From contig CAMYOO010000020.1 of NCBI GenBank assembly GCA_947260035.1, positions 1-41,248 of the forward strand: 41,248 nt of DNA. Reading direction: 5' to 3'. The notes beneath the pieces were generated by a model. The model ran no database searches. It had not been told where the DNA came from and saw only the letters and a list, made by a program, of their open reading frames with translations. This DNA is from an uncultured delta proteobacterium (GTDB lineage Bacteria; Myxococcota_A; UBA9160; JAFDET01). A program made the translations under genes and the position numbers. Of this stretch, positions 253 through 4,756 are shown piece by piece (the stretch's first letter is position 1; each line of letters starts with the position of its first letter).

Positions 253-1356
253 CTAGCTAGGCCGCGGACGTCCGACGAAGCCGCCCACCCAGGTGGCGAA
301 GGCGAACACGGCGGTGACGGGCAGCAGCGCCAGCTCGGTCTTGCGCACGCCGAGCAGCGCGCGGCGCTTCCACAGGCCGCGCGCCTCCGCAGCCCACCAC
401 AGGAAGGGAAACGCGAGAGCCGGCGCGCCGAAGCCGGAAAGCGCCGCCGTGACGCCGAAGGCCAGCGCCGCAACGCCGCCATGCAGGGTCACCTGGCCCA
501 CGTAGCCGGCCGGGCGCTGCTCGAACACGACGCTGTTCCAGCGCAGGTGACGGCGCATGGAGGCCCGCCAGCCGGCGTCGTCGAGCATGTGCTCCAGCAT
601 CAGCGGCACGAACTCGAGCCGGTAGCCGGCCTCCTCGACGTGGCGCGCCATCCAGTAGTCGTCGCCACAGACGTCGAGCAGCGCTTCCAGCCCGCCCGCC
701 TTCGCCAGCGCCTCGCGCCGCACCACCAGGCTGGCGCCCAGCCCGAAGTGCAGCCCCTGCACCTCCAGCGCCATGGCGACGCTGGGCAGGAAGTACGTGT
801 TGGTGATCTGTGCATCCACCCGGCTGGCGTGGCTCAGCCCCGGAACGCTCCGGTACGGGAACGTCACCAGGCCCACGTCGCCGTCCTTGAAGGGGCGCAC
901 CGCGCGCTCGATGTAGTCCGGGGGTACACGAACGTCGGCGTCGGAGAAGGCCAGGATGTCGGCGGGGACGCCCTCGGCCATCTGGATCAGATTGGCCATC
1001 TTACGGTTCAGGCCTTCCGGGCCCGGATCCACGCGAAGCTCGGTGGGCGGCTTTTCCCCGGCGCGGGACAGCGCCTGCCGCACGTCGTCGACGGCCGGAT
1101 CGTCGGCGTCGGCCACGCCCAGCACCACACGCGTCCTCGTAGGTGCGGCGGCCTGCCACAGGCTCTCCAGGCAGGGCTCCATCCAGGGCCCGCTGCCCTT
1201 GAGGGGCCGCAGGGCCGCTACCTCGCCGCTGGGCGGCACGGGCTCGGCTCCCAGCTCCGGGGCACCCAGACGCCGATCCACGGCCCGCAGCGAGAGTGCC
1301 CGGTAGGCCAGGCAGGCCAGAAGCCAGGCGCCGAGCACCATCAGGACGACATTCAT
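253..1356 (-). CDS. hpnI: Hopanoid biosynthesis-associated glycosyltransferase HpnI (GT2, ceramide glucosyltransferase-like)
   Basis: N-terminal TM segment, GT2 motifs (VLGVADADDPA, FSDADVRVPPDY), C-terminal membrane helices; directly follows hpnJ and hpnK. ATG at 1354-1356 overlaps the hpnK stop. Confidence 0.85.
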   Translation of the reverse strand: MNVVLMVLGAWLLACLAYRALSLRAVDRRLGAPELGAEPVPPSGEVAALRPLKGSGPWMEPCLESLWQAAAPTRTRVVLGVADADDPAVDDVRQALSRAGEKPPTELRVDPGPEGLNRKMANLIQMAEGVPADILAFSDADVRVPPDYIERAVRPFKDGDVGLVTFPYRSVPGLSHASRVDAQITNTYFLPSVAMALEVQGLHFGLGASLVVRREALAKAGGLEALLDVCGDDYWMARHVEEAGYRLEFVPLMLEHMLDDAGWRASMRRHLRWNSVVFEQRPAGYVGQVTLHGGVAALAFGVTAALSGFGAPALAFPFLWWAAEARGLWKRRALLGVRKTELALLPVTAVFAFATWVGGFVGRPRPS

Positions 1357-2198
1357 CGTTCCCTCACTTCCCGGTGGCCCAGATCCCGAGTGCCCGCCAG
1401 ACGGTACCCGGAAGCCTCTAGCGCCGCTCGGACGTCCGGATCGCACAAGGCCTCCAGCTCCCGGGGGCCCGCCTCGCCGGCGACATCAGGATGAGTATAG
1501 ACCTCCACCGTAATCCCGCCGAGCCGCGGCAGCAGCCTCAGCCACTCCTGGCGATCCATGCGGCCGGTGGCCCTCAAGCCCGCAATCCGGTCCGGCCCAC
1601 GCGCATCCCCGTGGGCCAGCACGCGGCGGTTGCGGCGCGCCAGCAAGGAGAAGGCCCAGGCGATGAGCTCGCCCAGGGCACCCTCGCCCCCTCGCCGCGC
1701 TACGCGCGGATCTTCTTCCACCAGGCGCACCCACGGAACCTTGTGGTCGTCCATGCAGCGCGCGATCAGATCGAAGAGGAACGGGTGCATGTGCAGGTGG
1801 TGGTGGCCGTCCACGTGATCGAAGGGCAGTCCCGTGTCGGCGTAGCGCTGGAACTGCGCGCGGATCTCGCGCTCCAGCTGGTCGCGGCGCCGGCGCCAGA
1901 AGAGGGCGTGGGCAATCCCGGTGGGCCCGGGACGCGACGCCAGGCGCCCGTCCCCGTTCACGAGATCCGGGATCGTCTCGGGCGGGCTGGCCGGGCGGGC
2001 ATCGCAGAACACCAGGTGCAGGCCGGTCGAGAGACCGGGGTTGCGGCGGGCCAGCGCCACGGCCTCGTCGAAAGCAGCGCCGGTCACCATCAGGCTGGCG
2101 CTGGTGAGGATGCCGTGGGTGTGGGCGCGAACGATGGCTTCGTTGACACTGGGACTGGCGCCGAAATCGTCGCCCGTCACGACGAGCCGGCGTGTCAC
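1353..2198 (-). CDS. hpnK: Hopanoid biosynthesis-associated HpnK, YdjC-like carbohydrate deacetylase
   Basis: Starts VTRRLVVTGDDFGASPSVNEAI; HVDGHHHLHMHP metal-binding motif; GTG start 2196-2198 overlaps the hpnJ stop (GTGA). Confidence 0.88.
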   Translation of the reverse strand: MTRRLVVTGDDFGASPSVNEAIVRAHTHGILTSASLMVTGAAFDEAVALARRNPGLSTGLHLVFCDARPASPPETIPDLVNGDGRLASRPGPTGIAHALFWRRRRDQLEREIRAQFQRYADTGLPFDHVDGHHHLHMHPFLFDLIARCMDDHKVPWVRLVEEDPRVARRGGEGALGELIAWAFSLLARRNRRVLAHGDARGPDRIAGLRATGRMDRQEWLRLLPRLGGITVEVYTHPDVAGEAGPRELEALCDPDVRAALEASGYRLAGTRDLGHREVRER

Positions 2199-3637
2199 GC
2201 CGATCGGTTCGCGCGCTCGTGTCTTCGCTTCGCCATGAACGAGAAGAACTCCCAGCCCTCTCGCAGGCGCCGCTTCATGACCTCGCGATCCCGCAGCATG
2301 TCGCGCACGATGCGCAGGATCGGTCCGCGTCGGAGATAGTACTCGCGGTAGAAGCGCTCCAGCTCCTCGTGGATCGTCTCGCTGTCCAGGTCGTCGTAGG
2401 AGAGGACGGCTTCCTGGATTCCCTCGCCCTGGATCAGCTCCCCTTGGCGGGCCTGGGGAAGCCAGCCGTTCTCCATCGCCTGACGGTAGAGCTCGGTTCC
2501 CGGATAGGGCGCAGCCAGAGAGACCTGAAGGCTGTAGGGATCCGCCTTCTTGGCGAAGGCCATGGTCTCCTCGATGGTCTCGCGCGTCTCGCCCGGCAGA
2601 CCGAGGATGAACGTGCCGTGGATCAGGATGCCGAGCTTGTGGCAGTTCTTCGCAAACTCGAGCGCCCCTTCCAGCTTGATGCCCTTGCGGATGTTGTTGA
2701 GGATCTGCTGGTTGCCGGACTCGAACCCCACCAGCAGCAGCCGCAGGCCGTTTTCCTTGAGGATCTTGAGCGTCTCGTAGGGGACGTTGGCCTTGGCGTT
2801 GCAGGACCAGGTGATCCCCAGCTTGCCCAGGCCGCGCGCGATCTCCTCGGCCCTGGGGCGGTCGTCGGTGAAGGTGTCGTCGTCGAAGAAGAACTCTTTC
2901 ACGTGCGGAAAGAGCCGCTTGGCGTGAGCCATCTCGGCGATCACGTTCTCCGCGCTGCGCGTGCGGTAGAGATGACCGGCAATGGTCTGGGGCCACAGGC
3001 AGAAGCTGCAGCGGCTGCGACAACCGCGGCCGGTGTAGAGCGATACGTAGGGGTGCTGCAGGTAGCCGATGAAGTAGCGCTCCACCTCCAGGTCCCGGGC
3101 GTACACGTCGGTCACCCAGGGGATGGCGTCCAGGTCGTGGATGGGCCCGCGATCCTTGTTGCGCACCAGGGTTCCGTCGGGCGCGCGCCAGACGATGCCT
3201 TCCACCTCGTCGAAGGGGCGGCCCTCGGCGATTTCCTTGACGGCGTAGTCGAACTCCCCGGTGGTGACGAAGTCCACCGCCGGCGCCGTGTGCATGGTCT
3301 CGTCGGGCAGCACCATGGTGTGCGAGCCGACCAGGCCCACGCGCAGGCGGGGATTCGCCTCCTTCATGCGGGCGGCGGTCTTGCTGTCCTGGGCCAGGGA
3401 AGGCGTGGACGTGTGCAGGATCAGAAGCTCGAACTCGGGCGCCCGCGCGACCACATCGTCGATGCTGAGGTCGTGGGGCGGCGCGTCGATGAGCACGCTG
3501 TCGGGCACCAGAGCCGCCGCCTGGGCGAGCCACGTGGGGTACCAGAAGGAGCGGATCTCCCGTCGAGCCTGGTAACGAGCCCCCGCCCCGCCGTCGAAGC
3601 CTTCGAAGGACGGGGGATTGAGAAACAGGGTCCTCAC
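2195..3637 (-). CDS. hpnJ: Hopanoid biosynthesis-associated B12-binding-type radical SAM protein HpnJ
   Basis: VRTLFLNPPSFEGFDGGAGARYQARREIRSFWYPTWLA; radical SAM CxxxCxxC (GRGCRSRCSFCLWPQ); GTG start at 3635-3637 overlaps the upstream stop (GTGA). Confidence 0.88.
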   Translation of the reverse strand: MRTLFLNPPSFEGFDGGAGARYQARREIRSFWYPTWLAQAAALVPDSVLIDAPPHDLSIDDVVARAPEFELLILHTSTPSLAQDSKTAARMKEANPRLRVGLVGSHTMVLPDETMHTAPAVDFVTTGEFDYAVKEIAEGRPFDEVEGIVWRAPDGTLVRNKDRGPIHDLDAIPWVTDVYARDLEVERYFIGYLQHPYVSLYTGRGCRSRCSFCLWPQTIAGHLYRTRSAENVIAEMAHAKRLFPHVKEFFFDDDTFTDDRPRAEEIARGLGKLGITWSCNAKANVPYETLKILKENGLRLLLVGFESGNQQILNNIRKGIKLEGALEFAKNCHKLGILIHGTFILGLPGETRETIEETMAFAKKADPYSLQVSLAAPYPGTELYRQAMENGWLPQARQGELIQGEGIQEAVLSYDDLDSETIHEELERFYREYYLRRGPILRIVRDMLRDREVMKRRLREGWEFFSFMAKRRHERANRSA

Positions 3638-4428
3638 GGAGTGCCCGGTGTGGCCTCGGAAGGTACGGCGCGCGGCCGATCGGGAACGGGCATCGGGTTC
3701 TCGACCCAGGGACGGTCGAGCTCGCCCGGGCGCAGCCACTTGGCCACGAACTGGAAGTCGATGGCGATGCCCGAGAAGAAGCGAATGATCCCGGGAGCGC
3801 CCAGGATGCCCATCAGCTTGCCCATGAATGCGCGGCTCACGGCGCGGTGCGCCTTGGCCTCAGCCCGGCGCGCGCGGCGCAGCTCACTGCGCACCTCGTC
3901 GGCGTGGCCGGCCTCGGCCAGCGTGTTGAGCTCTTCCGTGGAGAAGGAGACGTGGCGGATCTCGTCTTCGTGAATCTCGCGCAGGACCTCGACCGTGGCG
4001 GGATCCGCGGCCAGGTCCGTCAGCAGCCCCTCCATCTCGGCGCAGGCGCGCTCTTCACCGGCCTTGCAGCCGACCAGGAAGCGGATCAGCTCGCTGGTAG
4101 TGAAGGGCTCCGGCTCCTCGAGCCGCTCCATGGGGATGCCCATGGCGTAGCGCCGTACGAACTGCTCGTAGTCCAGCTCGGGGGGAAGCGGCTGCGGCTT
4201 GACGCCGAGCTGCTTCTCCAGGTGGCGGCCGAAGATGCGGGCGTGGCGGTTCTCCTCGGCGAAGTGCCGGTAGATCTTCCGCGCGAGCACCGGATCGGTC
4301 ACATGCGCCGCGGCCTTGTCCAGACCCACCGCGCTGTCGGCTTCACCCACGGCGAGCGAGTTCATCAGGAACGCGCGCGCCTCGTCGTTCTCGAGGATCT
4401 TCCGGAAGAAGCTTCGTCGGCTAAGCAT
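3634..4428 (-). CDS. Ferritin-like diiron-carboxylate protein
   Basis: Helical protein with Glu + ExxH twice: VGEADSAV, EENRH, KAGEERACAE, EDEIRH. First gene of the hpnJKI operon. Confidence 0.8.
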   Translation of the reverse strand: MLSRRSFFRKILENDEARAFLMNSLAVGEADSAVGLDKAAAHVTDPVLARKIYRHFAEENRHARIFGRHLEKQLGVKPQPLPPELDYEQFVRRYAMGIPMERLEEPEPFTTSELIRFLVGCKAGEERACAEMEGLLTDLAADPATVEVLREIHEDEIRHVSFSTEELNTLAEAGHADEVRSELRRARRAEAKAHRAVSRAFMGKLMGILGAPGIIRFFSGIAIDFQFVAKWLRPGELDRPWVENPMPVPDRPRAVPSEATPGTP

Positions 4429-4583
4429 GCGCTCAACTACCCCCCAACGCTTTCCCGAAGCAGGATCTTCATGGCCCCTTCAGGATGAAGGGAACCCAAA
4501 GCCCCCGCCTGCGCCGCATTCTACAAATACGAGCGCGGTTTGGCCCACTTTCTGCGCCATTTTCGCGACACCCGATTGGCCCG

Positions 4584-4598
4584 GTTTCGTCACGAAAC
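4584..4598. promoter_or_regulatory. Perfect 7-1-7 palindrome GTTTCGT-C-ACGAAAC, candidate operator in the leader of the ferritin-like/hpnJKI operon
   Basis: Perfect inverted repeat in the roughly 330-bp non-coding interval 4429-4756. Confidence 0.35.
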
Positions 4599-4756
4599 GG
4601 ACGGCCCTCATGGCACCCCGATGCTCCCCTGTGGGAACTCCTCCACCCCCCGGCGAGAGGCCCGAAGTTGACGTTTGCTGCGCCAGATTCAAGCCCCAAC
4701 CCCGGGGAATCATAGACCCCAGGGGGAAAAGAGCAACAAGATCGTGGCGTTTGTGT

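Follow-up and report, generated by a model that had tools for sequence, protein, structure and literature searches.

The window analysed here is a stretch of 41,248 nt from an uncultured delta proteobacterium (contig CAMYOO010000020.1, positions 1 to 41,248). Four of its genes, all on the minus strand, form a cassette. The first gene, termed F1 (positions 3634–4428, 264 aa), encodes a ferritin-like diiron-carboxylate protein. It is followed by hpnJ (2195–3637, 480 aa, GTG start), coding for the radical SAM enzyme that forms the cyclitol ether, by hpnK (1353–2198, 281 aa, GTG start), coding for a YdjC-type deacetylase, and by a gene for a divergent HpnI-like glycosyltransferase (253–1356, 367 aa). 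Neighbouring genes overlap by 4 nt: GTGA at 3634–3637 (F1/hpnJ), GTGA at 2195–2198 (hpnJ/hpnK) and ATGA at 1353–1356 (hpnK/hpnI), all read on the minus strand. The four genes and three overlaps lie exactly where a preliminary description of this locus had placed them. Genes were called with a caller trained on the recognised genes of the window. According to these calls, a gap of 328 bp lies upstream of F1 (4429–4756, minus strand), presumably the promoter region of the operon; a scan of this gap for a sigma-70-type consensus gave no match.

The identities proposed earlier for hpnJ and hpnK hold, as both proteins score above the NCBIfam cut-offs: HpnJ reached 754.6 bits against a cut-off of 577.6 (TIGR03471), and HpnK reached 245.4 bits against 232.6 (TIGR03473), with an additional match to PF04794 (E = 3.6e-65). 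HpnJ contains the radical-SAM cluster motif C206xxxC210xxC213, the cysteines of which are invariant in four HpnJ proteins. The naming of the fourth gene as hpnI stands only in part. HpnI (TIGR03472) was its top-scoring family by far, the next best being HpnB at 25.6, yet the score of 218.4 bits is below the cut-off of 310, and the gene is therefore described as a divergent HpnI. The cassette is a variant of the known hpnIJK operon. In common with the HpnI-HpnK-HpnJ cyclitol-ether pathway (Schmerk 2015, as far as it is described in PMC12583986), the three genes are adjacent and on one strand. However, the order here is F1-J-K-I, whereas most of the fetched loci have the order I-J-K, and the cassette has a divergent HpnI and an extra leading diiron gene.

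Overlaps of 4 nt are frequent in the window (6 of 25 co-directional neighbour pairs) and are therefore weak proof when taken alone. Of the three junctions, the one between F1 and hpnJ is conserved beyond the genus: besides the congeneric genome G002, it retains its overlap in G011 and G018 of a second family, while G011 has lost the overlaps at hpnJ/hpnK and hpnK/hpnI. Comparison with G002 gave dN/dS values of 0.15 for F1, 0.10 for HpnJ and 0.18 for HpnK; such purifying selection indicates that F1 is a real gene. We infer that F1 is co-transcribed with hpnJ, hpnK and hpnI.

The full set of diiron ligands noted earlier in F1 is present. It comprises E29 (codon at 4344–4342, minus strand), E59 (4254–4252), H62 (4245–4243), E125 (4056–4054), E156 (3963–3961) and H159 (3954–3952). 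This set, arranged as E29, E59-x-x-H62, E125 and E156-x-x-H159, does not vary among 16 proteins of the F1 family, the most distant of which share approximately 24% identity. E-ExxH-E-ExxH is the pattern of both catalytic and storage diiron proteins. An AlphaFold model of F1 (mean pLDDT 92, pTM 0.87) consists entirely of helices, with the ligands on four core helices (residues 15–33, 46–74, 111–138 and 143–209). The predicted helical bundle with its E, ExxH, E and ExxH ligands places F1 in the diiron-carboxylate ferritin-like superfamily by structure, and supports its description as a diiron ferritin-like protein with a predicted iron site.

No NCBIfam profile gave a family match to F1, and its scores were below the Pfam gathering cut-offs for Ferritin (12.4 vs. 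24.5 bits), DUF455 (20.7 vs. 34.3 bits), COQ7 (13.2 vs. 23.5 bits) and AurF (17.6 vs. 29.6 bits). Naming the protein as a ferritin, COQ7, MiaE or AurF was rejected, since every score fell below the cut-off. When the single F1 sequence was searched against PDB with phmmer, a designed helix bundle was the sole match of note; the F1 profile matched solved structures of an R2-like oxidase (7qbk, E = 2.7e-6), VlmB, MiaE and toluene monooxygenases. In the fold search, aldehyde deformylating oxygenase (ADO) and R2lox were recovered at TM of about 0.5–0.55. Alignments with ADO, R2lox and VlmB covered most of the chain and those with Dps-like proteins and YciF covered part of it; storage proteins of the Dps/YciF type scored equal to the oxygenases, and no close family was found. 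Compared with the catalytic diiron-carboxylate proteins (COQ7, MiaE, ADO, R2lox and AurF/VlmB), F1 shares the ligand pattern and the helical bundle but differs in the loop that connects the helix pairs and in its hydrophobic C-terminal helix (approximately residues 205–232), which would suit a lipid substrate. Distant homologues of F1 (about 30% identity) were found in hpnJ-free genomes among unrelated neighbours, and F1 is therefore one specialised lineage within a larger family.

The genomes screened for F1 and hpnJ comprised 61 genomes around the window and then all 91 genomes of the class. The hpnJ type of the window was found in four of them, G000 and G002 from one genus and G011 and G018 from another family. 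Close F1 orthologues (60–94% identity) adjoin hpnJ in all four, in the order F1-hpnJ-hpnK-hpnI, with the G018 contig ending within hpnJ. This neighbourhood comparison sustains the earlier assignment of F1 to the hpnJKI cassette; the opposite outcome, in which no relative carries F1 beside hpnJ, did not occur. The close relatives G001, G003 and G024 have neither F1 nor hpnJ. Two genomes, G072 and G078, carry an hpnJ that is 57–60% identical and lack F1, and one genome, G079, carries F1 at 47% identity and has neither hpnJ nor HpnH. Overall, F1 was present in 4 of 6 class genomes with hpnJ and in 1 of 85 without it (Fisher’s test, p = 2.8e-5, a guide only, as related genomes were counted separately). 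F1 is co-inherited with hpnJ as a unit. As the window organism’s genome encodes SHC (738.6 bits) together with a truncated HpnH, the organism can, judging from these genes, make hopanoids.

In the HpnJ tree, the F1-type HpnJ proteins form a single clade (SH-aLRT 98), and the link between F1 and hpnJ may therefore be a single event. So few independent events would be compatible with F1 being a functionally untied neighbour carried along with a transferred cassette. We consider this very improbable in view of the purifying selection on F1, the gene order and overlap kept across two families at 60% identity, the joint absence of F1 and hpnJ in relatives, and the parallel association of a second ferritin-like family described below.

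Outside the class, 80 hpnJ loci from GTDB genomes were inspected, and F1 adjoined hpnJ in none. Fifty of these genomes were searched whole with the F1 profile, which matched none of them; this search gave zero matches overall and so ran without a positive control of its own, while F1 as a single-sequence query does recover the class relatives. HpnJ cannot need F1, because F1 was found in none of these 50 genomes and is present in the hpnJ-free G079. The role of an essential HpnJ partner was thus rejected for F1. The function of HpnJ in Burkholderia and Alphaproteobacteria is likewise known without F1 (PMC12583986). As far as the account in PMC12583986 (citing Schmerk 2015) goes, HpnI, HpnK and HpnJ are sufficient for the cyclitol ether elsewhere, and F1 must therefore add or protect something.

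Protection would be the task of F1 if it were a Dps-, rubrerythrin- or ferritin-type protein that shields the oxygen-sensitive Fe-S cluster of HpnJ or delivers iron to it. The ferritin fold, the presence of Dps, YciF and bacterioferritin among the top fold matches, and the conserved 4-nt overlap coupling F1 tightly to the radical-SAM gene are all consistent with such a protein. However, the lack of F1 in every outside hpnJ genome searched, its presence in G079, and its partnership with HpnL-like genes, not with hpnJ alone, make this role unlikely. Among the interpretations put forward in the preliminary description, O2-dependent tailoring is still plausible, whereas the distribution of the gene (0/80 loci, 0/50 genomes and G079) speaks against F1 as an iron or redox partner dedicated to HpnJ.

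Screening of hpnJ loci for weak F1 matches yielded a second ferritin-like family, F2, whose ligands E59, E89-H92, E130 and E165-H168 are kept in 20 of 20 aligned proteins (alignment A6). The two families have in common the ligand pattern, the occurrence in hopanoid loci, an HpnL-like neighbour and a similar size, but their sequence similarity is remote. Alignment of F1 with F2 by hhalign gave a probability of 47% over 55 columns, and F1 does not match the F2 profile at the family threshold (E ≤ 1e-6). A search of the class with the F2 profile (A4) recovered G078, G072 and G030 and did not recover G000; the F1 profile, in turn, fails to reach F2 genomes. Consequently, F1 is not filed as F2, and what is deduced for F2 is not directly transferable to F1. 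We propose that F2 is a remote ferritin-fold relative with a comparable role in other hopanoid producers.

F2 was found in 25 of the 80 outside hpnJ genomes. Its position varied: the Acidithiobacillus cluster reads hpnA-I-J-K-N-L-F2-H, a gammaproteobacterial MAG has the order I-J-K-F2 (I-J-K-F2-HpnL-like in L043), and in Rubritepida F2 sits between hpnN and hpnH. On the HpnJ tree, at least nine switches between presence and absence of F2 are required by the well-supported branches, and the association with F2 has therefore been gained or lost repeatedly. When both families were considered within the class, F1 or F2 was present in 6 of 6 genomes with hpnJ and in 2 of 85 without it (p = 4e-8, in a post hoc comparison that ignores kinship). 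Some hopanoid producers (G390, G441, G453, G444 and G455; loci L222, L254, L255, L256, L259 and L260) have between two and four copies of F2, frequently arranged in tandem.

Both families recur with HpnL-like genes, which the preliminary description had not foreseen. A gene for an HpnL-like membrane protein lies immediately upstream of F1 in G011, G018 and G079; it scored about 95–100 bits against the HpnL cut-off of 195.65 and is therefore named HpnL-like only. In the window genome and G002, the HpnL-like gene is on another contig, beside genes for an NAD-epimerase and a PMT-type glycosyltransferase, an arrangement recorded for similar genes in G000. F2 adjoins an HpnL-like gene in 14 of 28 F2 genomes, one of these 14 being a decayed copy. 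In G078, F2 adjoins the HpnL-like gene 5 kb from hpnJ; G072 has the decayed copy in the matching position and an intact F2 on another contig. The decayed gene (L041:10757-11242, minus strand) has lost its second half together with the second E and ExxH, and its first ExxH has become ExxY.

The only cyclase of G079 scores 240 bits, far short of the 431 bits required for SHC (locus L193; contig C442:39325-41280), and the product in this genome may be another triterpenoid or a sterol. As G079 carries F1 without hpnJ, HpnH or an SHC above the cut-off, the substrate of F1 may not be a composite hopanoid. Alternatively, F1 and HpnL-like flippase/synthase proteins might together act on a glycolipid, not necessarily a hopanoid, with the link between F1 and hpnJ being secondary. 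The HpnL-like genes directly upstream of F1 in G011, G018 and the hpnJ-free G079 argue for this, as do the F2 neighbourhoods; the separate contigs in the window genome and G002 and the retention of hpnJ in four of the five close F1 genomes argue against it, and we regard it as a possible but doubtful explanation.

Among hpnJ genomes, F2 is present in all nine named Acetobacterales and in none of eight Hyphomicrobiales; one Acetobacteraceae MAG with hpnJ lacks it. Bacteriohopanepentol and -hexol are reported from 9 of 10 Acetobacteraceae and from essentially no Hyphomicrobiales (PMC12583986, Table 3). According to the same 2025 survey of Alphaproteobacteria, the genes for both compounds are unknown, and a look around hpn clusters brought up no candidates (PMC12583986). 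The match between F2 and pentol is at the family level, with genomes and lipids taken from different strains and pentol-producing Sphingomonadales outside the sample, and it could reflect one clade; a further point against it is that A. ferriphilus lacks F2. The distribution of F2 suggests a specific reaction, the hydroxylation leading to pentol and hexol. Desaturation by F2 is less likely: Rhodopila globiformis contains 19% pentol and zero unsaturated hopanoids (PMC12583986), and F2 is present in two Rhodopila genomes, so that this genus pairs F2 with pentol and not with unsaturation.

The recurrence of a diiron protein in hopanoid loci, together with its absence from the majority of hpnJ genomes, is consistent with an optional O2-dependent modification. 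The reading we favour, with a probability of roughly 0.45, is that F1 acts as an accessory diiron oxygenase, dependent on O2, in the tailoring of complex hopanoids. F1 would probably be a membrane-associated enzyme of the ferritin fold, made from the operon shared with HpnJ, HpnK and HpnI, and would be accessory in that these three work without it elsewhere. Its most likely activity is the oxidation of a composite hopanoid, either bacteriohopanetetrol glucosamine or the cyclitol ether, with O2 and an external electron donor. We infer the O2 activation, the substrate and the reaction; the reaction is extended from the distribution of F2 and the diiron site of F1. As the likeliest reaction, F1 would hydroxylate the side chain of the hopanoid beside the tetrol, which would yield products of the pentol or hexol type; headgroup oxidation ranks second. 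Side-chain hydroxylation in particular is put forward tentatively, as one possibility within the wider reading.

Instead of hydroxylating the side chain, F1 might introduce double bonds or N-oxidise the amino sugar in the manner of AurF/VlmB. We know of no N-oxidised hopanoids. The weak matches of both F1 and F2 to AurF and VlmB profiles, the free amine produced by HpnK and the unsettled state of the genes for unsaturated hopanoids (PMC12583986) are in line with these reactions. However, the profile matches are under the cut-off, and Rhodopila has F2 while cultured Rhodopila is without unsaturated hopanoids, which leaves either reaction distinctly unlikely.

A literature search, for which subscription journals were largely out of reach, returned no paper describing a ferritin-like protein in hopanoid synthesis, and to our knowledge both ferritin-like families are undescribed in a hopanoid role. 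F1 and F2 could represent two undescribed lineages of diiron oxygenases that act on the hopanoid side chain by hydroxylation and are the missing enzymes for bacteriohopanepentol, bacteriohopanehexol and their cyclitol ethers, a broader proposal that we advance with considerable reserve. Penta- and hexafunctionalised hopanoids serve as sediment biomarkers. If F1 or F2 carries out the pentol/hexol step, genomes would allow this phenotype to be predicted, and the oxygen requirement of the enzyme would link these biomarkers to oxygen. Failing that, the recurrent ferritin-like partner would still provide a concrete handle on HpnL.

An amidinotransferase gene lies near hpnJ in G078 and G072 (L040:13915-15021, minus strand; L041:11374-12480, plus strand) and, at 62–65% identity, in the hpnJ loci of Methylobacterium/Methylorubrum, all five of them, as well as in a Beijerinckiaceae MAG (L107:5603-6718, minus strand; also L092, L099, L108, L118 and L110). 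The best PDB match of the protein was SxtG (7e-141), with inosamine-phosphate amidinotransferase at 2e-72. Since Methylobacterium extorquens makes a guanidine-substituted cyclitol ether (PMC5358736), the amidinotransferase is a candidate for the formation of this compound. In G018, and apparently in G003, it directly adjoins an HpnL-like gene (L199:4531-6687 and L149:1-2415), and HpnL-like genes therefore pair with three candidate tailoring enzymes, F1, F2 and the amidinotransferase. Between hpnK and hpnJ, G078 and G072 carry a DegT aminotransferase gene and two NAD-epimerase genes (L040:2000-6483 and L041:5206-8263), possibly serving further headgroup chemistry.
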